Source of the DNA: a virus
Reading direction: 5' to 3' (one strand)
Virus record (IMG/VR): IMGVR_UViG_3300020205_000868
Coordinates: 1-20,008 of that record
Length of the DNA: 20,008 nt
Positions 1,480-18,253 of this stretch are shown here, in pieces. The position numbers and the translations under genes were made by a program. Every line of letters begins with the position of its first letter. The first letter of the stretch is position 1. The notes beneath the pieces were generated by a model. The model saw only the letters and a list, made by a program, of their open reading frames with translations, was not told the origin of the DNA and did not search any database.

Positions 1480-1777
1480 TCTTCTTGCCTTCTTCGTATT
1501 GTTTAAAGAGTCTAGACACATCTTCCATTCGTTCGGCAAATATATCAGCACTTGTCTGTGACACTTTTTTCATATCGTATTCGCTAGGATAATGACGTAA
1601 ACAATGTCGAGCGCCGTCTTTAATTGTTTTAGGAACTCGGGGAGTAGAAAGTATCAATTTTAAAAATCTTTCTGTTTGTAATACTGCTCGGTAGCGTTCG
1701 TCTGGTAATGTCATTTCTTTTAACACTTTTTCGTGATCTAATTTTACGTAAGTCCAGTCTTGATTATCAAGATTCAT
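1469..1777 (-). CDS. BPSL0761-like small protein (102 aa)
   Basis: Residues of about 25-70 show the pattern of the BPSL0761 family: DERYRAVLQTERFLKLIL, then a TPRVPKTIKDGARHCLRHYP block. This is a small all-helical family of unknown function found in bacteria and phages. The protein is longer than the usual family member of roughly 60 aa because it has extra residues at both ends, the C-terminal one charged and helical (RMEDVSRLFKQYEEGKK). The ATG overlaps the stop of the DpdA-like gene by 4 nt (ATGA), so the two are probably translationally coupled. Its 3' end overlaps the next gene by 11 nt. The family assignment is from memory of the motif. Confidence 0.7.
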   Translation of the reverse strand: MNLDNQDWTYVKLDHEKVLKEMTLPDERYRAVLQTERFLKLILSTPRVPKTIKDGARHCLRHYPSEYDMKKVSQTSADIFAERMEDVSRLFKQYEEGKKNET

Positions 1778-3402
1778 TTTATTTCTATTTCAAGATCGGT
1801 AAGTGCGGATTCGTCGAATTCGATTTCGTTAACTGATTGTACTACATCAGGGGTTACTTCGTCAAAGAGATTGGCAAAGTGTGTACTGGCATTAACAGTT
1901 TTCTTACCGCTAGCACCACGAGTACCAATAATATCCATCCAATACTTGTTGTATTCTTCAACTAACTGATCTGCCTTTCCGCGATCGCTTGTTTCAAAAA
2001 TAGCATTAACAATATCTTTAAAGAACATGTGTTCGTATTGTTTGGAAGATTTTGTATTGGCATCAAGCACACTCATCATAGCTGGCATCTTGCCAGCATC
2101 GTATTGCCGATTGGCTTCTTGAACCGCATTAACGTGCATCCAAACATTATGCCCCATCATAACAGCATAGCTGAATGAGTCCCAACTTGTTTTGTTACTA
2201 ACTTTCCCTAACTTATTAAGGTCCGGAGTTTTAATCCAATCGGCTGGATTCATCGGATCTGGAGTTGTAACACCCGGTTTAGGAATGCCTGCTGCATAGA
2301 TACAAATTTCTTTCATAGTAACTTGATCTATAATTGGACTTGATTCAAACAGTTTAAAAATGTTGTCTTGTATTACAGCGTCTTTGAACAATCTTGTGTC
2401 TTGGGCGTATTTTTTGTCGTCTGCAGAAGACTGCATACGGTAGACCCATTTCTTCCTGTCTTCGGTTTCTGTGTTAATATAGATTTGTCCGTTTGCGGTT
2501 GCGAGGAACGGACTTGCGCAGTCAAAAGAGATGGTAAATTGCTCATTATGATATTTCCTTACAGCACGTTGAATGTCAGTGAGCAAAACAGCCCACTCCA
2601 ATTTTGAGGTACCTAAGAAGTGCATCCAATCTTGTTCGCCCTTCTCAAGCAGTCCATCAAATCTTAATGCCACAAGGCGCTTTAGCACCAAGTGTACGTC
2701 ACACATATTCTGTCCACCCATACCCCAACCGTTAAAGTGACGGTCACCGTATTGTTTGGGGTCGCAGTATTTTTTCATCCTCTGATACCAATCTTCGGCA
2801 TCAGCATGGTTTTCACCTTGTAGAACGTTTAAGAACTTGCAGTTGCCGTTACGATTATTAACAAAGTAGTCATTATTGATATAAGTGCCTTGTACAGCTT
2901 CCATATATGTACTAATGCCAGTTGCTGCCACACCTGCTGGACTACGAGCAACCCAAGCTGGTATATCAAGACCCATACCGTAGTCCATAAGCGTGTCCAT
3001 CCAAGTAAGAACTTGGCTACGCTTCTTCATAGCTTTTGGACAATTAGGATCTTTCCAATCAGCAGGCCAGACACCTTTACCAATCTGGAAACCACCTGAA
3101 TCGCCTAACACCCAACTTGTGCCTCTATTACGATTACGAAACATATCTTCGCTTTCGTCTTGTTTATTTAAATCAAGATTAGCATGGCCCGCGGAGTATA
3201 GACAATGGTCGTAGTAAAATGCGCCTTTGTCCGGATCAAGATAGTTTAGGCTTTCAACACCATTTGCAAAACTAGCTGGAATACGAGCAGGATCTACGTA
3301 GTTACTATAGCGTTGTTTGCCTATGAACGTTGAGTAGAATCCTGACGTAGCCGGCAAGAAGTACGCATAGTCATTCTGTGTTGCTGTCAGGTTTTTATTC
3401 AT
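1774..3402 (-). CDS. dpdA-like: DpdA/TGT-like base-exchange enzyme (candidate 7-deazaguanine DNA modification)
   Basis: This 542-aa protein carries the catalytic landmarks of the tRNA-guanine transglycosylase superfamily, in order. DSGGFQ (101-106) has the Asp equivalent to the substrate-binding Asp of TGT. GMGLDIP (142-148) follows, then a QGE (195-197, like the QGG loop) and GWGMGG (225-230, like GGLAVG). FDCASP...NGQ (293-306) matches the TGT nucleophile block FDCVLPTR...NGQ, with Asp294 as nucleophile. The CxCxxC...H zinc site of classic TGTs is not apparent. In this superfamily DpdA exchanges guanine in DNA for preQ0 or derivatives, while TGT acts on tRNA. The position immediately after the sliding clamp favours DNA as substrate. 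Clamp TAA and this ATG share one base, and the start has only a weak SD (AAAGTAAGTAATG), so it probably depends on clamp translation. The substrate is inferred. Confidence 0.8.
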   Translation of the reverse strand: MNKNLTATQNDYAYFLPATSGFYSTFIGKQRYSNYVDPARIPASFANGVESLNYLDPDKGAFYYDHCLYSAGHANLDLNKQDESEDMFRNRNRGTSWVLGDSGGFQIGKGVWPADWKDPNCPKAMKKRSQVLTWMDTLMDYGMGLDIPAWVARSPAGVAATGISTYMEAVQGTYINNDYFVNNRNGNCKFLNVLQGENHADAEDWYQRMKKYCDPKQYGDRHFNGWGMGGQNMCDVHLVLKRLVALRFDGLLEKGEQDWMHFLGTSKLEWAVLLTDIQRAVRKYHNEQFTISFDCASPFLATANGQIYINTETEDRKKWVYRMQSSADDKKYAQDTRLFKDAVIQDNIFKLFESSPIIDQVTMKEICIYAAGIPKPGVTTPDPMNPADWIKTPDLNKLGKVSNKTSWDSFSYAVMMGHNVWMHVNAVQEANRQYDAGKMPAMMSVLDANTKSSKQYEHMFFKDIVNAIFETSDRGKADQLVEEYNKYWMDIIGTRGASGKKTVNASTHFANLFDEVTPDVVQSVNEIEFDESALTDLEIEIK

Positions 3403-8071: not shown

Positions 8072-10216
8072 TTATTTCATCTTTTCTCTTGCGGCCGCTA
8101 ACCCTGCTTGAATTTCTTGGTTTTTAGATGTACTCAATTTAGTTATAATTGCTTCAATTTGCTTTTTAAGGGCTTCCATTTCAGCATCATCTGCGGCCGA
8201 TGTATCTGGCGCAGTAGGAGTTGGAGTAGCAGTCGTTCCGCCGCCACCGCCTGCTGGAGCAGTTGGAGCAGTTGGAGCAGTTGGAGGATTTGGATTACCA
8301 CTACTGCCACCGTCCATTGATCCAGTGGCATATCCACCAGCCCCCATCACCCCAGATAGCCCTAATGCTGTTTTACCTGGGTTTTGTCGAACCATACGAC
8401 GGCCATTTACTGCAGTTGATCTGCCTAGTTTTGCTATACCGGAAAATATTTTACCCCAGCCACTTTCATCTAAGTTTTCAGATAACCCAAGTTTTACAGG
8501 ATCAAACTTTTCACCAGTTCCTTCAAGGGTATTTGGGTCACAAATTTCCAAGGATGGCAGTTCGACAACTATTCCTTGTTTAGGAAATTCCATAAACGTT
8601 CTGCCAGTGTTGGCATCCATTTTTGCTACTCCGCCCTTTGTTTGTAAATCAACAGCTAACTGCATTTGCTCAGGAGTAGCTGGAATAGCTCCCGGCGGCG
8701 CATCGTCCATTGATGGTTGATTACCTTCGGATTCGTTAGTAGCAATATTGTCTAATTTATGTTGCAAGTCTCTCATTGTTTCTGCTAGTGATTTTTGTGG
8801 CATAATATTCTCTTGAATTTTTAAACGTTCCATTGCGCCTCGTGTTTCTGGGCCCATATGTCCGTCGGCACCGTGCTTAGGTAGTGCGTTTGGATCCTTA
8901 GCAAGTATACGTTTTTGTAATGCTTGAACTTTAGGATCAAATGGCCCAATGCCACCGCCTGCTGGAGCATTTGGATTACTGCCCTGAGCATTAGGTTTAT
9001 CATTTTTAACTGGTGGAGTAGTGTTACCGCTTTGAGGCTTAACGGGTGGTGTATCCGCACTGCCTTCTGGCTTGTCGTACTTGTCAGTAGCACCACTTAA
9101 CTCGCGCCCAGCTTGCCAAGCCCCGAGCCCGACAGCTGGAATCCAACCTAGCCCCGGTACTAATGAAAACGCACCTGATAATCCGTTTAATGCGGCGCCA
9201 AGATAGTCACCTTTCTTATAACTGTCAATAGCATTACTAACTCCCATGTATGCTCCGACTCCAGGCATAGCACGACCTAATAGTTTACTGCCAGCACCTA
9301 ACATTTTAGAACCAGCACCGGCTGTTGCCTTAGCACCAGTAGTCACCGCAGGAGTTGTATGCGATGCTGTATTGGCTACACTTGCGGTACTAGCTACGCC
9401 GGCTGTAGTCGGAGCTCCGGTTGAATATGATGGCATGTTAGGAACGTTGCTAGTTGGTACATTGTACGAACCACCTTTTATACTTCCTGTTTGAGAAAAG
9501 TTTTTTGGTGCGTTCGCTTGTGCTGTACGTTGTTGTTGTAACATTTTTTGCTCAGCATCGCTGTATGCTTTAGCGTTACTTGCAGTATCTTGACGAGCAT
9601 ACGCATCTCTATATCTTTGATTTGGATCAAATGTTGGTGTATTTGGCGCAGCTACATTCAATCTAGTTTGTAAAAATCCCGGAGCAGGTGGATCAAGATC
9701 TACACGTTCATACAGATTATAACCAAATGACTCAACTAGACTTTGAGCAATACTGCCTTTGAAGTTAATGTGTTCTGCCACAGGAGTACCACCTTGTTTA
9801 CGTTTAGCTCTTAACGCATTATATTTTTCAATCAGTTCCATTAATTTTTTTAATTCTGCCATTAAGGCAGCATCTGAATCAGCAGTTTCTTTGTACTGCT
9901 TCCAGTTAACCCCTTCTGGGAAATCAATATATTTGCCGTCCGGTGTAATAACACCGTCAATACTTGCTGGATTCCAACCTGATCGATTTAGTGTATTACC
10001 CTGCCAAGGAACAATAGTGTAACCAACGTCGCCTTCGCCGCCTTGCGAAGCTTCATGCCAAAATGCGCCGTCTGGAGTTTGCATTACTGGGTTTTTGTTA
10101 CCAAGATTTCCTTTGTGGAAATGTGTTGGTTTAAATTGTGTAGGAGCAGTTGCTTCGCTAATATATGTACCAGCTTGAATTGCTTCTAATTTATTAACTA
10201 ATGATCGGTAATCCAT
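8072..10216 (-). CDS. Large virion-type protein with peptidoglycan-binding-like segment and hydrophobic region (714 aa)
   Basis: The N-terminus MDYRSLVNKLEAIQAG runs to an I-S-E (19-21) that fits a prohead-protease site. Residues of about 200-300 are low-complexity Ala/Thr/Ser/Gln. A Gly/Ala-rich hydrophobic stretch covers about 301-370 (including a SLVPGLGWIPAVGLGAW core), with two GxxxG-like helices that could enter membranes. Residues 425-466 resemble a peptidoglycan-binding domain: VQALQKRIL, then DGHMGPETRGAME, matching the family's LQ...DG.fGpeT pattern. A second small hydrophobic Gly/Ala segment lies near 614-630. A Pro/Thr/Gly linker and a charged helical tail follow. It has a good SD (AAGGG) and AATAAATA upstream. 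An ejected or baseplate-associated protein acting at the cell envelope is plausible. No lytic catalytic domain is visible. Confidence 0.8.
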   Translation of the reverse strand: MDYRSLVNKLEAIQAGTYISEATAPTQFKPTHFHKGNLGNKNPVMQTPDGAFWHEASQGGEGDVGYTIVPWQGNTLNRSGWNPASIDGVITPDGKYIDFPEGVNWKQYKETADSDAALMAELKKLMELIEKYNALRAKRKQGGTPVAEHINFKGSIAQSLVESFGYNLYERVDLDPPAPGFLQTRLNVAAPNTPTFDPNQRYRDAYARQDTASNAKAYSDAEQKMLQQQRTAQANAPKNFSQTGSIKGGSYNVPTSNVPNMPSYSTGAPTTAGVASTASVANTASHTTPAVTTGAKATAGAGSKMLGAGSKLLGRAMPGVGAYMGVSNAIDSYKKGDYLGAALNGLSGAFSLVPGLGWIPAVGLGAWQAGRELSGATDKYDKPEGSADTPPVKPQSGNTTPPVKNDKPNAQGSNPNAPAGGGIGPFDPKVQALQKRILAKDPNALPKHGADGHMGPETRGAMERLKIQENIMPQKSLAETMRDLQHKLDNIATNESEGNQPSMDDAPPGAIPATPEQMQLAVDLQTKGGVAKMDANTGRTFMEFPKQGIVVELPSLEICDPNTLEGTGEKFDPVKLGLSENLDESGWGKIFSGIAKLGRSTAVNGRRMVRQNPGKTALGLSGVMGAGGYATGSMDGGSSGNPNPPTAPTAPTAPAGGGGGTTATPTPTAPDTSAADDAEMEALKKQIEAIITKLSTSKNQEIQAGLAAAREKMK
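8256..8286 (-). repeat. 9-bp tandem repeat (about 3.4 copies)
   Basis: On the plus strand GGAGCAGTT is repeated three times followed by GGAG. On the coding strand it gives the Thr-Ala-Pro triplet repeat in the linker of the 714-aa protein. Such in-frame repeats can change copy number by slippage without breaking the frame. Confidence 0.9.
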
Positions 10217-10236: not shown

Positions 10237-10244
10237 TATTTATT
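10237..10244 (-). promoter_or_regulatory. T4-type late promoter motif (AATAAATA) before the 714-aa gene
   Basis: AATAAATA on the minus strand matches the NATAAATA late promoter motif of T4-like cyanophages (T4: TATAAATA). It ends 20 nt before the ATG of the 714-aa gene and overlaps the stop codon of the 579-aa gene. Overlap with a TAA codon raises the chance of coincidence. Confidence 0.45.
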
Positions 10245-11979
10245 TCTTAGGTACACAGTTAGGCACAGTTTTGCCGCCTTTTTTCTTAGTACCGATTTGT
10301 TTATAATCTTTCCGGCATGGATCGTTATCTTCACCAATGTGTCGGTCAATCCCTCTAGATCCAACTCCGCCTTTTTTACGTTTTTCGGCCAGTTCTGAAA
10401 TGCCATGACGAATCTGTTCTAAATTTTGTTCAAGGCCCATAAACATTCCACCTTGTGCTTTTTTACAAATTTCTTCCCATGCTACTAGACTGTCACTATC
10501 TGCTAGTTGCGCTAGTTCTTTTAATTGAGCACGAGCTGACATGATACGGCCTTTAAGACTCATTGGGTTAGCTTTTTCGTGTCCGTAGATTGTTGGATCG
10601 TTTGGATCTCCGGACATATCAATTGGAGCTTCGTTTACTTTCTTCTTTTTCATTGCCTGACTTAACTGTTTAGTACCAGTGTCAGCTTTGTTAAATTCTT
10701 TTGCTACGTTAGATTTAATACCTACCTTTTTAGCAAACTTTGGATCATGAGCTGCCGCAGCCATAGTACGTGCTTGTTTTTGACTCACACTTTTTTCGTC
10801 AAGTCTACTTTCACGAACCATAACACGATTGGCAATAGTTTGTGCGTATTGATTAATTAATTGACGTTTATGTGCTTGTTCTTCTACGGCTTCTTCGTCT
10901 AGCTCTTGAAGATAACCTTTTAACAACGATTGCGTGTTAATTAAGGGGATTACTTTTTTAGGGGTAGTATAGTGTTGCATTGCCATTTGTATAGGTAACG
11001 CAACTTTATGTGGATTAGAACCTTCGTTGATAATAGATAAAAATCTACTCATGCCAACTTCTTCAGTGGCATACTTTTGATTAAGATCAACCGGCGCTGC
11101 AGCAGGTACAGCAGGATCAGGAGCATCGTACTCAGCTGCAGCATCAATGCCTTTAGCTTTTAATGCTGCCGCCATTTGTGCTAGTTTAGTACGCATTGCG
11201 TTAGTGGACGCAGTAACGGCTGGGCTGACATCTGTATAAGTATTAGCGCCTCCTCGTAAGGAATCTGCGCTATCTAACTGTGCTCTAAGTTGATTATAAG
11301 CAATTTGATCTGGTGGTAATGTTGATGCTGGAGCAGGTGCCGCTGGAGCAGGTGCCGCTGGAACAGGTGCCGCTGGAGCAGGTGCCGCTGTATTTAAATC
11401 GGCTTCTTTAACAACTCGAAGTAATCGAGCCATATCGTTTGGAGTTTCTGTTAATACTCCTGCTAATTTTAGCAGGTCCGCCGAGTCGTCATATTTTGAT
11501 TCTTTGGCAATAGGAGTTGTGCCCGGAGTAACTGTAACTTTAATCCCAGTGCTTGGGTCATAACTTGATTTAGATAAATCTAAGTTTTTAAGATATTCTG
11601 CGCTCGCCAAGTTGCCTTTTGCAGCATATTGTTGAGCATATTCTCTTTCACCTGGCAAGTATGAATTACCGTCATTTTTTTGTTGCGGGTTAAATGTTTG
11701 ACCCGGTGCTAGTGGTTTATCAAACTGCGGAAGGATTTGTAGTGTAGCTTGTTCCGCAGTGCCTGCCGGATTTTTTTTCAGCCATGCAGCAATTATATCA
11801 GTTGCTTCTTGAGCAGTTTTACCAGTTGCTTGGATATCGTGTACAAGATCATTCCATTCAGTCTGCTGATTTAAGTCTGCTTCTTTAACAACTTGAAGAA
11901 ATTTCTTCATGTCGTTAGCACCTACTACAGGTTTTGTAGCAACGCCATCCATCGCCTGTAGTATGCGCTTCATGTCCAT
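10240..11979 (-). CDS. Ala/Pro-rich virion-type protein with repeated short motifs (579 aa)
   Basis: A short motif of the form DM(K/A)(R/K)xL(Q/R)xVKEADLN occurs twice in full (about 21-36 and 180-196). Degenerate copies are at the N-terminus (MDMKRILQAMDG) and at 308-319 (VGMSRFLSIINEG). Each resembles the leader-like N-termini of neighbouring proteins. Residues of about 198-218 are an Ala-Pro linker from a DNA tandem repeat. The region around 402-443 carries a MAAAAHDPKFAKKVGI element that I recall in other phage structural proteins. The Cys-containing end (KTVPNCVPKK) is also familiar from marine phages. The ATG at 11979 follows the previous stop by 4 nt with a weak SD (GGGT), so translation is probably coupled. 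A role in the head or tail is inferred from context; no enzymatic domain was found. Confidence 0.75.
   Translation of the reverse strand: MDMKRILQAMDGVATKPVVGANDMKKFLQVVKEADLNQQTEWNDLVHDIQATGKTAQEATDIIAAWLKKNPAGTAEQATLQILPQFDKPLAPGQTFNPQQKNDGNSYLPGEREYAQQYAAKGNLASAEYLKNLDLSKSSYDPSTGIKVTVTPGTTPIAKESKYDDSADLLKLAGVLTETPNDMARLLRVVKEADLNTAAPAPAAPVPAAPAPAAPAPASTLPPDQIAYNQLRAQLDSADSLRGGANTYTDVSPAVTASTNAMRTKLAQMAAALKAKGIDAAAEYDAPDPAVPAAAPVDLNQKYATEEVGMSRFLSIINEGSNPHKVALPIQMAMQHYTTPKKVIPLINTQSLLKGYLQELDEEAVEEQAHKRQLINQYAQTIANRVMVRESRLDEKSVSQKQARTMAAAAHDPKFAKKVGIKSNVAKEFNKADTGTKQLSQAMKKKKVNEAPIDMSGDPNDPTIYGHEKANPMSLKGRIMSARAQLKELAQLADSDSLVAWEEICKKAQGGMFMGLEQNLEQIRHGISELAEKRKKGGVGSRGIDRHIGEDNDPCRKDYKQIGTKKKGGKTVPNCVPKK
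11327..11386 (-). repeat. 15-bp tandem repeat, four copies
   Basis: Four head-to-tail copies of GCTGGAGCAGGTGCC on the plus strand (the third has A in place of G at one position) encode the Pro-Ala linker of the 579-aa protein. The array is in frame, so gain or loss of units would only change linker length. Confidence 0.95.
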
Positions 11980-13466: not shown

Positions 13467-13474
13467 TATTTATC
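13467..13474 (-). promoter_or_regulatory. T4-type late promoter motif (GATAAATA) before the 485-aa gene
   Basis: GATAAATA on the minus strand matches NATAAATA and ends 25 nt before the ATG at 13441, just upstream of the GGAG ribosome binding site. It overlaps the TAA of the 86-aa gene. Its place in the only gap between two virion-type genes in this stretch supports a late start site. Confidence 0.5.
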
Positions 13475-13730
13475 GTTTGATGGGTGCGCCAAACAAGTTT
13501 GCGCCCTTTATATCTAAGCCGTTTACAGCAGTACCGTCACTCTTTTTAGGCTGTACAACCTTAGGTTGTGGCGGCGACTTAGTACCTGAACCTGTGCTAG
13601 GACTGCCTGTATAGCTCTTTTTACCACGTGCTTTACCTGGGCTATGATGCGGATTAACTACTGTGCCTACATTTGCTGCACTTGTTACTCCAGCAGTAGC
13701 AGTTTCACCTATTAGTTCTCTAAGTTTCAT
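13470..13730 (-). CDS. Small basic protein with capsid-targeting-like N-terminus (86 aa)
   Basis: Begins MKLRELIGE then TATAGVTSAAN. The I-G-E at residues 7-9 fits the (L/I)-x-E cleavage rule of T4-type prohead proteases, and the first nine residues resemble the leader of T4 internal head proteins. The remainder is Gly/Ser/Pro/Lys-rich and probably disordered (KARGKKSYTG, KSPPQPKVVQPKK), which would suit a DNA-associated protein packaged in the head. Its ATG overlaps the previous stop by 4 nt (ATGA), with GGAAA upstream. I recall short marine phage proteins beginning MKLRELxE-x-TAG without known function. Confidence 0.75.
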   Translation of the reverse strand: MKLRELIGETATAGVTSAANVGTVVNPHHSPGKARGKKSYTGSPSTGSGTKSPPQPKVVQPKKSDGTAVNGLDIKGANLFGAPIKR

Positions 13731-14026
13731 ATTATTTTTCCAATACCGTTATCGCCAGTCAAATGCGGCAAACTAAACCATAATCTAAACCACTCTGGGG
13801 TTCCTGGTTTAATATTATGATCTTTCATATACTGTCCACGTTCGTTTCCAGCTATACTAATATTACTTCCTTGACTAGCACGATATTCATGTAATCTTGC
13901 TTCCCCGCCGAGCCCGCCTAATCCTGCTAAGGCTTTTAATTCATGGATAGGATCTTCTGGCGCAAGGTAACAATCGTCGTCCGATGTTTGATTTAAATCT
14001 GCGCTAGTAATTCTATATTGTTTCAT
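13727..14026 (-). CDS. Hypothetical phage protein (99 aa)
   Basis: No domain recognised. It has an acidic N-terminal half (SDDDCYLAPEDPIHELKAL), a Gly-rich stretch (AGLGGLGGEARLHEY) and a C-terminal block MKDHNIKPGTPEWFRLWFS, then LPHLTG. That block is aromatic-rich and I recall it in cyanophage proteins. It overlaps the Dps-like gene's stop by 4 nt and the 86-aa gene's start by 4 nt, so the three are probably translated together. Confidence 0.7.
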   Translation of the reverse strand: MKQYRITSADLNQTSDDDCYLAPEDPIHELKALAGLGGLGGEARLHEYRASQGSNISIAGNERGQYMKDHNIKPGTPEWFRLWFSLPHLTGDNGIGKII

Positions 14027-14460
14027 TTTAAACTTGCCCGTAACATCCAGCTATGTTTTTTGTGTGCGTCTTGTCTATCGGCTAGAAAGTTACTTAGCCC
14101 GTGATCACCAGCAGATTCTGCCATCGAAAATGTAATTTTAAATATATCAGCCATTTTTTCGCTATCTAACAATAATTCACGTAACATTTGTTCAAATGGT
14201 AACACTTCGTTTTCATCGTCTACTTTAGATAACATACTAAAACGTTCTAAACTTGCAGGAGTATAAATTTGTAAAGCACGTAGTTGTTCAGCAAAGGTAT
14301 CAATACTGCCATATGTTTCATTATAAATGCGTTCAAATAAATCATGAAGCTGGCCAAACAACGGACCTTCTACATTCCAATGAAAATTTTGTGCTTTTAT
14401 AGTAAAGGCGTACTGACTAGCAAATGCTGTTTTTAATGCTAAATGATATTTTTCGTCCAC
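14023..14460 (-). CDS. Dps-like ferritin (DNA-protection/iron-storage family)
   Basis: 145 aa, slightly shorter than E. coli Dps (167). The Dps ferroxidase signature is complete and correctly spaced: His27 (NFHWNVEG), His39 (QLHDLFE), Asp54 and Glu58 (SIDTFAEQ). The 12/15/4 residue spacing is the same as His51, His63, Asp78 and Glu82 of E. coli Dps. The long N-terminal Lys-rich DNA-binding tail of E. coli Dps is absent. Dps forms 12-subunit shells that oxidise iron with peroxide and protect DNA. The start is GTG, one base after the preceding stop, with a good SD (GGAG 8 nt upstream, overlapping the end of the 1123-aa gene). It lies among virion-type genes, so packaging or late protection of phage DNA is possible but unproven. 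Confidence 0.9.
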   Translation of the reverse strand: MDEKYHLALKTAFASQYAFTIKAQNFHWNVEGPLFGQLHDLFERIYNETYGSIDTFAEQLRALQIYTPASLERFSMLSKVDDENEVLPFEQMLRELLLDSEKMADIFKITFSMAESAGDHGLSNFLADRQDAHKKHSWMLRASLK

Positions 14461-14461
14461 T

Positions 14462-17400
14462 TTAAACTCCGAATCGATTCTTTTTAATCTTTGCTACTGG
14501 GCTAGTTTTATATGTATCGTCTAGCTCTTTACTTTTCATGTCACCGTGATTTACATCATCGTAACTAGCACCCACTGCCTTTGCGGCTTTCTTGAACATT
14601 TCATTTTCAATTTCTGTATATGGGTGTACTGTTTTCTTTTTACCGTACCAACTTTTAGCATCAATTTCTGGCACAAATTTGCCATCTGTTGAAGCCATAG
14701 CTTGTCCTAATTTAAATGCTACATAATCACTATTAGCTTTTTCTGCATCGCTGTATGTGCTTATACCACGACTTGACTGACTGTGTCGTTTAGTAATTTT
14801 TGCAGCAGTAGATTCTTCTAAAGATCTAGTCATCTCTTTTATTTGTTCAGATAGCTGACGTTCTTTTAACTTGGCAGCTATCGGAGCAGGTATATCTTTG
14901 TCTATTTTATCAATGGATGGCATAGTCGGTTTTATCTCTTGTGGTTTATTTACCGGTTCTGTAGATACTGGTTCGTTACTAACGTCATCAACAGACGGGC
15001 GAGGTTTAATGTTCATAACCTGTCTAGCAGTACTCATGAGTTTTTTAATCCATGGTATGCCTAATTTTTTAACATCAAACGCACGAGTCCAGACCGGTAA
15101 TGCTTTTTCGTCAGGAAGTGATAATGCTTTCCTACACTGTGTAAAGGTAATTCCAGTTCCGCCTTGATCTTCTTCGCGTTTTGTTTCTATAGTTTCAAAG
15201 GTAACGTCGTTATGACTACCTGGATAACGCGGATCTTTCATACGTTTTGCTAACACATCCATCCATTTCTTCATGCCGGCATATCGGTCAGATCCTACCA
15301 TAAGAATAATATGTTTATAAGGACTATCTGGCGGTAAAACTAATTCTTTTTCTATTTTCTTTACAGGACTGCCGCCTTCCTGCCACACATGAAACATATC
15401 AGCACGATTAGGATATAATTTTTGCCAAGTTTCTAATTTCATTTCTGGAGGAATTGGATCGTCAGGTCCGACAGTGGGACTAATATAAACAAATGCATCT
15501 CCGTCTACTTCATCGGATTTTTCTAAAACTAAGTTAACTAACTGTTCGTGCCCTTTGTGCCCTACAAAACTACCTGCTGTTATAACTGCAGTTTTTGTAC
15601 GAGTAGCCCCACCGGCGGCTTTTCGAGCTTCCCTAGCAGCCGCAATAGCATCTTGTTTATTAGCAACTACTTGCCGCTGTTCTGCGCTAGTAACTTTAAT
15701 CGGACCAAGGCGAGTATTCAGTACAATGCCTTCGTAGTCTTTTCCTAACATGTCTTTACCAATAATGTTAGGATCGGCAATAATTGCCTTTTCTAAAGCT
15801 ATTGCTACAGGATGTAACGCGGCAGCTACCTGACGTTTACGATCGTTAATACCTTTTTCTTTGCTGGTTAACATAGATTTAAGTTCTTCTATGTTTTCTA
15901 ACGGGGGAACAATACCAGTAACATCTAACGCACCGTTTTGTGTTAATGCGTTGTTAATAAACATTACGCTACCTTGTTGCCCTAATCCAGTTAATGCCTT
16001 AACTAGTTGGCTGGCATTTTTAACATCCTCACCACTAGATGCATCAGATATATGGAATGGCACTAGTGCTAGTTCTACACCTTTTGGAAGTTTGTCGTAG
16101 TTTATTCCGACAAACTTTAATTTACCTTCTTCTGTTTCTGTAGCAAACGGCAAAAATAATACTTCACAAGTAACTTGTTTGTTAACTAGGAACTCTGGTC
16201 CTAATCGGTCATCTACAAGTTCAACGGCTTTCATCATTTCTTCAAACAACTGATCAAACAACTGCGCACGGCCAAGAATCTCTGGATCAGTAGTACCTTT
16301 TTCTTGATGGTATTTGGCAAAGTTTGCTTCGTACCTTGGCGGGGTACGACTAGTACCCATAAAAGGTTTGCCTTCAGCATTTTTACCAAAGCGGCCACCG
16401 AAGCCGTCTACTTTAACATTCAAGGGAATGTTTTGTATTTTAAAGTTGCCGTTGCCGTCGTGTATTTCATCAAGTAAGTCTAATAAGTCTGCTGGAGGTA
16501 AGTTACGTAAATGCGGCATGCCTTTTCTAAGTTTAGCCACAACTTCGGCTTCTTGTAATTGTTGCAATGCCTTGGCTTTTTTCAATGCTGCTCTTGGTTG
16601 ACGTTCATCTGGATTGTCTTTTTTATACGCCTCAACTTCATTAAAATCATCTTCGTATGCTTTGGCCATCTCAATGGCTTTTGGTCGCATAATAGCTAGG
16701 TCAAGTTTTTTTAGCATGACATCTATAGCAACAAATTTTGTTTGAGCATCACGTGCCGGATCGTCTTTAGTGATCATCTGGCTACCAACTTCAAAACATA
16801 TGTCGAGAAACTTTTCAACTATGTCTGCTTTCTTTGACTGGTCAACGTATTTGTTAATTAAATCTAATGTGCCAACAAAACTTTGTTGTAGTTTACTATC
16901 CTCTTCTGTGGGAGTAACACCAAACAATAATTGAAATTGCTGACTTAAATTTTGTATATATGGACGATCCTTAGCATCAATTGGTTCCATCACCGGTAAC
17001 CCATCTTTTGTCATAGGCTGATCTGTTTCTGGATCTATGTAAGGCTGATATTTTTGACTTACACCCCCGCCTTGACTACTTGAAACTGCAAAGGATGTTA
17101 TGCTGTGTGTTTCGGGTGTATCACTAATCTGTACAGCTCTAGCTTTGCCCCTGCCTGCTAACTTTGCAACATAAAATTGACGTGTGCTTAGACCCGATAA
17201 CGATCTATAAAGGTATTTGTGAAACACCCCTTTGATTCCGGCTTGAATATCTGCCCAATCACTACTATGGCTAAATCTAAACCATTCGTCAGGAGTTCCG
17301 GTAGCATCGTCGTATTTTCCAAATTCAAAATCAATTTGTAATTTTACAGGAGGATCGACCAATTGAAATAATGCGTTGTATTGTTCATTGCCTTTACTAA

Positions 17401-17833
17401 AACCTAATAATGTGCTGTTACCAATTTGCTTATTAATATTAGATTGTAGAAACGTCTGAACTTGTGGTTCTAGTCGTTTGTCAACTTGCGTGTCAATGTC
17501 GCCAACTTTAGGTTTTAGAGCTGCAAATTGCTCATCACTAATATCACGAGTATTAAGAAAATGTAAACTACTGCCACCTAAAAACTGTTTGCTAGATAAC
17601 AATTCAGGACTCCACATCCCTTGTTTATGATCTTGTTTAAATGCCTCATCGATACTGTGCAACAACTGATCAATAACGCCGACCATGTGACTACGATTGT
17701 TTACTTTGAGATTTATTTCATCCGCCTGGTGTCCAGCATCACCCTGCCATCCAGGGGAATCGCTACTAAGATTACCACCTTCTGACAATATCAGATGTTT
17801 TTTAGGATTAACAAATAATTCACGTAATAACAT
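14462..17833 (-). CDS. 1123-aa multidomain nucleotidyltransferase-like virion-type protein
   Basis: The leader MLLRELFVNPKKHLILSEGG has a prohead-protease-like L-S-E at 16-18. Region 1 (about 45-230) has LGGSS (85-89), GDIDTQVD (111-118) and LQIDFEF (165-171), the hG[GS]...DxD...D pattern of Pol-beta-type nucleotidyltransferases with a longer first spacing. Region 2 (about 465-716) has KVDGFGGRFG (Lys474), CEVLFLPF, EGIVLN (701-706) and GPIKV (710-714), resembling motifs I, IIIa, IV and V of ATP-dependent ligases. Region 3 (about 745-935) has TAGSFVGHKGHEQ (HxGH at 759-762), GSDR (847-850) and ITFTQCRKAL, matching the HIGH/ISSTxxR pattern of NMN-adenylyl or cytidylyltransferases. A basic tail ends KIKKNRFGV. 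SD AAGG precedes the ATG, which overlaps the previous TAA by one base. Each assignment is by motif; fusion of all three is unusual. Confidence 0.8.
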   Translation of the reverse strand: MLLRELFVNPKKHLILSEGGNLSSDSPGWQGDAGHQADEINLKVNNRSHMVGVIDQLLHSIDEAFKQDHKQGMWSPELLSSKQFLGGSSLHFLNTRDISDEQFAALKPKVGDIDTQVDKRLEPQVQTFLQSNINKQIGNSTLLGFSKGNEQYNALFQLVDPPVKLQIDFEFGKYDDATGTPDEWFRFSHSSDWADIQAGIKGVFHKYLYRSLSGLSTRQFYVAKLAGRGKARAVQISDTPETHSITSFAVSSSQGGGVSQKYQPYIDPETDQPMTKDGLPVMEPIDAKDRPYIQNLSQQFQLLFGVTPTEEDSKLQQSFVGTLDLINKYVDQSKKADIVEKFLDICFEVGSQMITKDDPARDAQTKFVAIDVMLKKLDLAIMRPKAIEMAKAYEDDFNEVEAYKKDNPDERQPRAALKKAKALQQLQEAEVVAKLRKGMPHLRNLPPADLLDLLDEIHDGNGNFKIQNIPLNVKVDGFGGRFGKNAEGKPFMGTSRTPPRYEANFAKYHQEKGTTDPEILGRAQLFDQLFEEMMKAVELVDDRLGPEFLVNKQVTCEVLFLPFATETEEGKLKFVGINYDKLPKGVELALVPFHISDASSGEDVKNASQLVKALTGLGQQGSVMFINNALTQNGALDVTGIVPPLENIEELKSMLTSKEKGINDRKRQVAAALHPVAIALEKAIIADPNIIGKDMLGKDYEGIVLNTRLGPIKVTSAEQRQVVANKQDAIAAAREARKAAGGATRTKTAVITAGSFVGHKGHEQLVNLVLEKSDEVDGDAFVYISPTVGPDDPIPPEMKLETWQKLYPNRADMFHVWQEGGSPVKKIEKELVLPPDSPYKHIILMVGSDRYAGMKKWMDVLAKRMKDPRYPGSHNDVTFETIETKREEDQGGTGITFTQCRKALSLPDEKALPVWTRAFDVKKLGIPWIKKLMSTARQVMNIKPRPSVDDVSNEPVSTEPVNKPQEIKPTMPSIDKIDKDIPAPIAAKLKERQLSEQIKEMTRSLEESTAAKITKRHSQSSRGISTYSDAEKANSDYVAFKLGQAMASTDGKFVPEIDAKSWYGKKKTVHPYTEIENEMFKKAAKAVGASYDDVNHGDMKSKELDDTYKTSPVAKIKKNRFGV

Positions 17834-18207
17834 TAATAATCCTTATATTTTCCGTCGCTATAATGTTTTTTAAAATCTTCTAGCATTTTTTTACAAACTG
17901 CTTTACAAGTTTTATCTTCTAATGTTTCTGGTAATTCTTTAATAGGATATTCTTCTACGTACTGTTTATAGCATTCTTTAACGGCAGGCTTAAAAATCAT
18001 TGGATCAATTTTTTCTTTTACTTTAATGTGCTTAACGCATTTAGTAATTAGTGGATAGACATGACGACGATATATGTCATCATCGTGATTCATAAAAAAT
18101 GTTAGGTCTTCAACAAGATCGAAGTCAATTTTAGTGCCGTCAAGGTCCTTTTTGACAAACTCTAATTCTTTAACATCTTTGCCTTCTAATAGTTCTCTAA
18201 TACGCAT
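17833..18207 (-). CDS. Hypothetical phage protein with capsid-targeting-like N-terminus (124 aa)
   Basis: ATG at 18207 (MRIRELLEGKDVKELE) chosen over a TTG 30 bases upstream because the former matches the RELL/RELF/RELI starts of neighbours; its SD is weak (CGGG). L-L-E at 6-8 fits a prohead-protease site. The rest is helical and Lys-rich: a FFMNHDDDIYRRHVYPLITK block (about 38-57), then a CVKHIK segment, and Cys at three further places. I recall this fold pattern in unannotated cyanophage proteins. It is followed without gap by the 1123-aa gene (TAATG overlap). Confidence 0.75.
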   Translation of the reverse strand: MRIRELLEGKDVKELEFVKKDLDGTKIDFDLVEDLTFFMNHDDDIYRRHVYPLITKCVKHIKVKEKIDPMIFKPAVKECYKQYVEEYPIKELPETLEDKTCKAVCKKMLEDFKKHYSDGKYKDY

Positions 18208-18253
18208 TTTTAAGCCCGTTATTTTTAGTCGCAACAATACTTTGCGGATATAC

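Follow-up and report, generated by a model that had tools for sequence, protein, structure and literature searches.

A candidate capsid-targeted polyprotein of T4-like phages, combining three nucleotidyltransferase domains with prohead-protease-type sites at its joints

Why a virus should encode three different nucleotidyltransferases (NTases) in a single reading frame, and whether they work as a single chain, is the question raised by a long gene in the window (the whole 20,008-base stretch of viral DNA analysed here). The gene encodes 1123 aa on the minus strand at 14462-17833, the plus-strand frame being riddled with stops. A preliminary description had picked out three motif sets, assigned them to three distinct NTase types joined by linkers in one polypeptide behind a leader, and guessed at packaging like that of T4 Alt. 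Translation of the minus-strand frame confirmed every motif residue at its position. Same-strand neighbours in the window include a family B DNA polymerase, a ClpB-like AAA protein and a Dps/ferritin-like protein, and the reading frames that matter here are as follows.

14462..17833, minus strand: whole reading frame, 1123 aa, ATG start, stop at 14462-14464; homologous to at least 81 distinct three-domain reading frames
17833..18237, minus strand: upstream reading frame, overlapping the start of the 1123-aa frame by one base; its internal start, MRIRELLE↓GKD (arrows mark predicted cuts), is leader-like
13470..13730, minus strand: 86-aa neighbour with the leader MKLRELIGE↓TATAGVTSAANVGTV, which resembles the capsid-protein cut site of related phages

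No Pfam family matched the whole protein. Scanning viral contigs with the whole protein as query gave 26 loci, while scans with alignments of domain 1 and domain 2 gave 202 confirmed matches (80 kept) and 97 (80 kept), respectively; 81 distinct three-domain reading frames were left after duplicate removal. The order Pol-beta, ligase, HIGH is common to at least these 81 relatives in viral contigs, and zero relatives were found in the bacterial and archaeal genome contigs scanned. The first domain and its motifs lie as follows.

16550..17779, minus strand: domain 1, residues 19-428, Pol-beta-superfamily NTase by motifs and, weakly, by Foldseek (AF2 model, pLDDT 94, pTM 0.89)
17567..17578, minus strand: GGSS (86-89), the Pol-beta helix-N motif, G87 and S88 invariant, at the beginning of model helix 71-76
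17492..17500, minus strand: D112-I-D114, the catalytic pair, invariant, at the beginning of model strand 96-102
17324..17332, minus strand: D168-F-E170, the third acidic residue, invariant, within model strand 148-156

Across 46 diverse relatives, G87, S88, D112, D114, D168 and E170 are invariant, and in the AF2 model the hG[GS], DxD and third acidic positions sit on the helix and strands expected of Pol-beta NTases, the motif check on the models being one of placement on secondary structure. Foldseek matched the domain to Pol beta (2van) with a probability of 0.99 and a weak E-value of 0.009, and to Pol mu (E up to 0.01) and poly(A) polymerases, with none of the matches below E 0.001. The modelled domain thus appears to group, weakly, with Pol-beta-type NTases. 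Its top match by E-value, SpoT, was rejected (probability 0.33), as was an RlaP identity, for lack of a match to PF10127, a family also missing from 12 large contigs. A search of viral structures returned a 633-aa viral protein (TM 0.80) and PHROGs an unnamed family (E 1e-25); profiles of domains 1 and 2 run against PDB sequences gave no meaningful match. Among cultured phages, domain 1 occurs alone in Campylobacter and Vibrio phages. The second domain has the following parts.

15599..16549, minus strand: domain 2, residues 429-745, RNA-ligase-type adenylyltransferase by Foldseek (AF2 model, pLDDT 90, pTM 0.83)
16403..16414, minus strand: ligase motif I, K474-V-D-G477, Lys474 being the predicted AMP-accepting lysine; invariant
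16160..16168, minus strand: ligase motif III, C-E557-V, E557 invariant
15722..15733, minus strand: ligase motif IV, E701-G-I-V, E701 and G702 invariant
15692..15700, minus strand: ligase motif V, I-K713-V, K713 invariant

Eight residues (K474, D476, G477, R481, E557, E701, G702 and K713) are invariant in 35 diverse relatives; in the model, the KxDG lysine comes immediately after a strand, and a pair of neighbouring strands has motifs IV and V next to it, as is typical of ligases. The best 16 Foldseek matches are RNA ligases throughout (probability 1.0, best E 8e-5, with low TM-scores of 0.33-0.40), including those of Palaeococcus and Naegleria, a eukaryal nick-sealing ligase, T4 Rnl2 and an archaeal ligase. 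At full Foldseek probability, the model thus indicates a ligase fold placed with ATP-dependent RNA ligases. Because the Pfam RNA- and DNA-ligase models do not match domain 2, we file it as RNA-ligase-like, outside any named ligase family. The third domain is recognized by profiles and motifs.

14978..15598, minus strand: domain 3, residues 746-952, HIGH-superfamily adenylyl/cytidylyltransferase by PHROG and RibF profile matches
15548..15562, minus strand: GHKGH (758-762), the HIGH-type nucleotide-binding motif, H759 and H762 invariant
15131..15151, minus strand: ITFTQCR (895-901), the second HIGH-superfamily motif, of ISxTxxR type, R901 invariant and T898 at least 90% conserved

In 34 diverse relatives G758, H759, G761, H762 and R901 never vary, with T898 conserved in at least 90%; PHROGs gave 'cytidyltransferase' (E 4e-14), profile comparison a weak match to the RibF adenylyltransferase (E 8e-4), and Pfam on this domain alone no usable HIGH-superfamily assignment. 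On its motifs and profiles, domain 3 is a HIGH-superfamily adenylyl/cytidylyltransferase. The proposal of three distinct NTase types therefore stands, with distinct folds and active-site residues conserved across relatives, and, since those residues are invariant or nearly so in all three domains, catalytically dead enzymes seem unlikely.

The idea of a single linked chain fared less well. The leader end and some of the joints of the protein are marked by short sites of the kind cut by the T4 prohead protease gp21, which cleaves after L/I-X-E, and T4 internal proteins are directed into the head by short N-terminal propeptides (PMC9026906).

17780..17833, minus strand: N-terminal leader, residues 1-18 (MLLRELFVNPKKHLILSE), a capsid-targeting-like propeptide ending in the gp21-type site LSE↓GG
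16550..16558, minus strand: LQE↓A, predicted prohead-protease site at the domain 1/2 joint, residues 426-428; [LIV]xE in 81/81 junctions

The leader seen in the preliminary description is borne out, as it ends in [LIV]xE↓G in 75/75 relatives even though its sequence and length vary, with L or I two places before the leader Glu in 67 of the 75 against a background of 8.6%. The Campylobacter CP220 homologue carries a leader (MKLSELMFILE↓GGN), whereas the leaderless relatives from X1, Moby and Vibrio phiKT1024 begin with MGGN, exactly at the predicted leader cut, and these starts serve as a clear natural control, at the level of sequence, for its position. At the junction between the Pol-beta and ligase domains [LIV]xE is present in 81/81 relatives (mean 33 and maximum 48 in shuffles), mostly followed by Ala, whereas the ligase/HIGH junction, of the same mean length, has it in 0/81 with 21 expected. 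This difference suggests that the first joint stays open to cutting and the second is held intact. Processing would then be expected to yield a free Pol-beta NTase and a fused ligase-HIGH protein, and 'joined by linkers' in 'one polypeptide' probably misdescribes the mature state. In two relatives (L012 and L018) an additional module is inserted between [LIV]xE-type sites.

The contigs that carry the gene also encode head components. Of the 17 large gene-bearing contigs searched for an S77 prohead protease, 9 gave a match and 8, which may be incomplete, gave none; the protease is absent from the 20-kb window, itself a fragment. The gp23 capsid protein is present in 9 of 11 large contigs with the gene, and all 8 gp23 proteins read have an LxE↓S/T-A site near residue 41-61 of the open frame. 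A segment of the form E↓(S/T)-A-T-A-G-A-T-S, with variants, recurs in 28 reading frames near the gene, including the window frame at 13470-13730, and nothing like it appeared in three shuffles of all 4,859 distinct reading frames. Virion evidence comes from P-SSM2 gp194, annotated as T4-GC 190, which matches domain 3 (E 1.5e-14; hhalign 96.8%) and begins MKSFSQFLTE↓T; T4-GC190 has been detected by mass spectrometry in purified S-SM1 virions (PMC3037559). The early guess at T4 Alt-like packaging thus gains support from the prohead-protease sites, the S77 protease of related phages and this virion detection of a domain-3 homologue.

From these sites, domains and head genes we infer cleavage, head targeting and injection, and consider it likely that the 1123-aa frame is a capsid-targeted, processed and injected polyprotein giving a Pol-beta NTase, a ligase-HIGH enzyme and a variable C-terminal cargo. 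The 18-residue leader would bring the polyprotein into the prohead core, where a gp21-type (S77) prohead protease would cut after LSE18 and LQE428, and probably LEE1007 too. The first product would be a Pol-beta-type NTase beginning GGN, the second an enzyme of two domains, RNA-ligase-like and HIGH adenylyltransferase, and the third a small cargo module; these products would stay in the capsid, enter the cell with the DNA and act ahead of phage gene expression. A rival reading is that the protein is never processed, its [LIV]xE stretches being plain linkers in a single chain working in the cytoplasm. The 81/81 sites at one junction against 0/81 at the next, the coincidence of the leader end with the leaderless starts and the virion location of a domain-3 homologue speak against this reading, which we regard as very improbable.

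The polyprotein reading extends to the C-terminus, which is the most changeable part of the protein.

14813..14854, minus strand: tail linker, residues 994-1007, with predicted sites LSE↓Q and LEE↓S
14465..14812, minus strand: C-terminal cargo module, residues 1008-1123, about 77% identical to free-standing 129-aa proteins

In its free-standing 129-aa version, the module of residues 1008-1123 has a leader ending IISE↓A; free-standing relatives of the C-terminal module have their own leader ending in [LI]xE at the corresponding place, for example MELRMKVTEIISE↓A. Most relatives have this module swapped for others, their tails after domain 3 running to up to 942 aa and including an HD_4 domain, a lysozyme with LysM, a weak GNAT match and many unnamed modules. 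Of 597 starts of shared modules, 318 have an [LIVMA]xE no more than 6 residues away (172 expected), as do 397 of 750 ends (223 expected); overall, tail-module boundaries lie near such sites at 1.8 times expectation, and these boundaries are not independent events. There is perhaps an even chance that these T4-like phages practise modular delivery of this kind, with prohead-protease sites parting interchangeable modules and one leader loading a pre-cut enzyme mix for injection. The proposed mix would hold the three NTases together with changing cargo, for instance HD, lysozyme or GNAT modules.

The domains themselves suggest what such a mix might do. The role we favour, tentatively and at somewhat less than even probability, is the immediate repair of nucleic-acid ends, probably of RNA or tRNA cut by host defences, in which the HIGH domain would make or restore a nucleotide cofactor such as NAD. 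Three considerations put RNA-end repair first: domain 2 folds like an RNA ligase, no OB-fold comes after it, and phages are known to pair Pol-beta NTases with RNA ligases (PMC7824862). No ordinary Rnl1 or Rnl2 ligase was found in twelve large contigs with the gene. The three kinds of protein are also found close together in Xanthomonas phage X1 and Stenotrophomonas phage Moby, where four consecutive genes encode Pol-beta, an extra gene product, ligase and HIGH proteins; the X1 genes match domain 1 at 99.9% and domain 2 at 98.8% (hhalign), and the ligases of both phages keep motif I despite about 20% identity. Homology of the X1 HIGH gene to domain 3 was unsupported by hhalign, leaving it a parallel only. 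That separate genes occur in the same order supports a functional link of the three enzymes. Both phages have an Rnl1 ligase beside the separate trio, and X1 also an Rnl2, so the trio should not simply be taken for their tRNA ligase, and its substrate may be special.

DNA ends are another conceivable substrate, the Pol-beta domain filling gaps and the ligase sealing them so that the injected genome is repaired or circularised, as by Pol X and ligase in NHEJ. Pol beta and Pol mu lead the confident Foldseek matches of domain 1, the extra gene of the X1/Moby operon resembles a PD-(D/E)xK nuclease by eye, phrog_12709 spans this nuclease-like gene and the ligase together, and delivery alongside DNA would fit. 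However, domain 2 matches RNA ligases ahead of DNA ligases, and the likeness of domain 1 to Pol beta is too weak to separate polymerases from other NTases. DNA ligases use an OB-fold, and the HIGH domain directly after the ligase leaves no space for one. On balance, we judge DNA-end repair unlikely.

Alternatively, signalling molecules or host proteins could be the targets, with the NTases making, removing or transferring nucleotides on them, a reading modelled on T4 Alt, which modifies RNA polymerase. The possibly host-directed modules in relatives' tails (HD_4, lysozyme, the weak GNAT match) are compatible with this, and Pol-beta NTases are among the protein-modifying domains of polyvalent proteins (PMC5512222), but a ligase-like/HIGH fusion is unusual for such a role and no target is indicated, making this a possible but doubtful reading. 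The HIGH domain could also be an NMN adenylyltransferase that replenishes the NAD consumed by host NADase defences, with accessory roles for the other two domains. Its HIGH-superfamily motifs, the occurrence of NadV plus NMN adenylyltransferases in phages (PMC9503650) and a weak match of domain-3 relatives to phrog_3462, a nicotinamide-nucleotide adenylyltransferase, are consistent with this, whereas, among named families, cytidyltransferase PHROGs and RibF match best rather than NadM or NadR, and NadV is found in just 2 of the 12 large gene-bearing contigs; we think NAD maintenance improbable as the main function.

Packaged internal proteins act before the host response, and their functions are known for few. 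The prediction here is that a single precursor brings in an entire enzyme set, which the capsid-maturation protease then divides into its working parts. If this holds, it would account for the long and variable proteins labelled 'hypothetical' in many contigs of T4-like phages, make [LIV]xE at module joints a rule for finding further cargo, and suggest that nucleic-acid repair or nucleotide chemistry is a phage need in the first minute of infection.

Among known systems, T4 Alt and IPI-III are like the candidate polyprotein in their short N-terminal propeptide with an L/I-X-E end, in the S77 protease and gp23-type capsid shared with the related phages, and in ejection with DNA, which is predicted for the 1123-aa protein. 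They differ in that the latter gathers three NTase domains in one precursor, with a predicted cut site inside it and exchangeable modules at its C-terminus, and, unlike Alt, it is without an ADP-ribosyltransferase core. The cyanophage T4-GC190 'cytidylyltransferase' (P-SSM2 gp194, S-SM1) has a homologous HIGH domain, a leader and a virion location by mass spectrometry, and a ligase-like gene (phrog_455) adjoins it in many cyanophages; however, these are separate genes or a two-domain family, with no Pol-beta domain found. Homology of domain 2 to the cyanophage ligase-like gene of Melnitz was unsupported by hhalign, which makes it a parallel only. The X1/Moby operon has the same order, and its Pol-beta and ligase proteins are homologues of domains 1 and 2, but the genes are separate and leaderless, with one extra nuclease-like gene. 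Polyvalent proteins of phages and conjugative elements (PMC5512222) are likewise multi-enzyme chains with mosaic modules, thought to be injected, and the 1123-aa frame, with several disparate enzymatic domains in one chain, may be comparable; their release is attributed to peptidase domains within the chain, whereas prohead-protease-type sites stand at the joints here. In RlaP-RNA ligase repair pairs, too, a Pol-beta NTase acts together with an RNA ligase that is ATP-dependent, but domain 1 does not match RlaP (PF10127). A literature search, largely outside subscription papers, found no description of a prohead-protease-cut multi-enzyme precursor of this kind. What appears new here is the predicted multi-NTase precursor with sites at its joints, as a variation on the T4 Alt/IP-type internal proteins.

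Low-complexity proteins encoded near the polyprotein gene begin in a leader-like way, with sequences such as YISE|ATAP (the bar marks the predicted cut point of a T4 gp21-type prohead protease), and modules of these proteins are also found in the tails of relatives, the variable parts after the HIGH domain (L017). The following features were recorded in the window:

10240-11979 and 8072-10216, minus strand: low-complexity proteins with leader-like starts
13470-13730, minus strand: small protein with an E|(S/T)ATAGATS segment, similar segments occurring in other loci
14023-14460, minus strand: gene immediately following that of the polyprotein, encoding a Dps/ferritin-like product (PF00210, 8e-18)
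1774-3402, minus strand: no Pfam match; the 542-aa product contains DSGGFQ, a motif known from tRNA-guanine transglycosylases

The E|(S/T)ATAGATS segment is common to these small proteins and the predicted mature start of major capsid proteins. The Dps/ferritin-like protein might be a packaged DNA-binding protein.

Both ends of the polyprotein vary among relatives, and individual modules are reused:

L014, 7557-8010: longer N-terminal region substituting for the leader, with a zinc-peptidase-like HELVHAKQH motif and still ending in ISE|GGN
L059, 4739-7564; L153, 8525-10624; L054, 9397-9618: tail cargo, namely an HD_4 domain, lysozyme plus LysM, and the stretch YHATGGLKKILSTGRI
L020, 7074-8393: 440-aa protein made up of a separate leader, a HIGH domain and the C-terminal module that the window protein also has

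Long N-terminal regions likewise occur in L035, L038, L052 and L084, and YHATGGLKKILSTGRI resembles, by eye, the starts of ADP-ribosyltransferases.

In Xanthomonas phage X1 and Stenotrophomonas phage Moby, where the trio is encoded by separate genes, another gene lies between Pol-beta and ligase:

L027, 8951-9955; L199, 5007-5951: PD-(D/E)xK nuclease-like by eye

This gene and the ligase are united as one family in phrog_12709. Queuine transglycosylase and QueE genes lie near the X1 trio.
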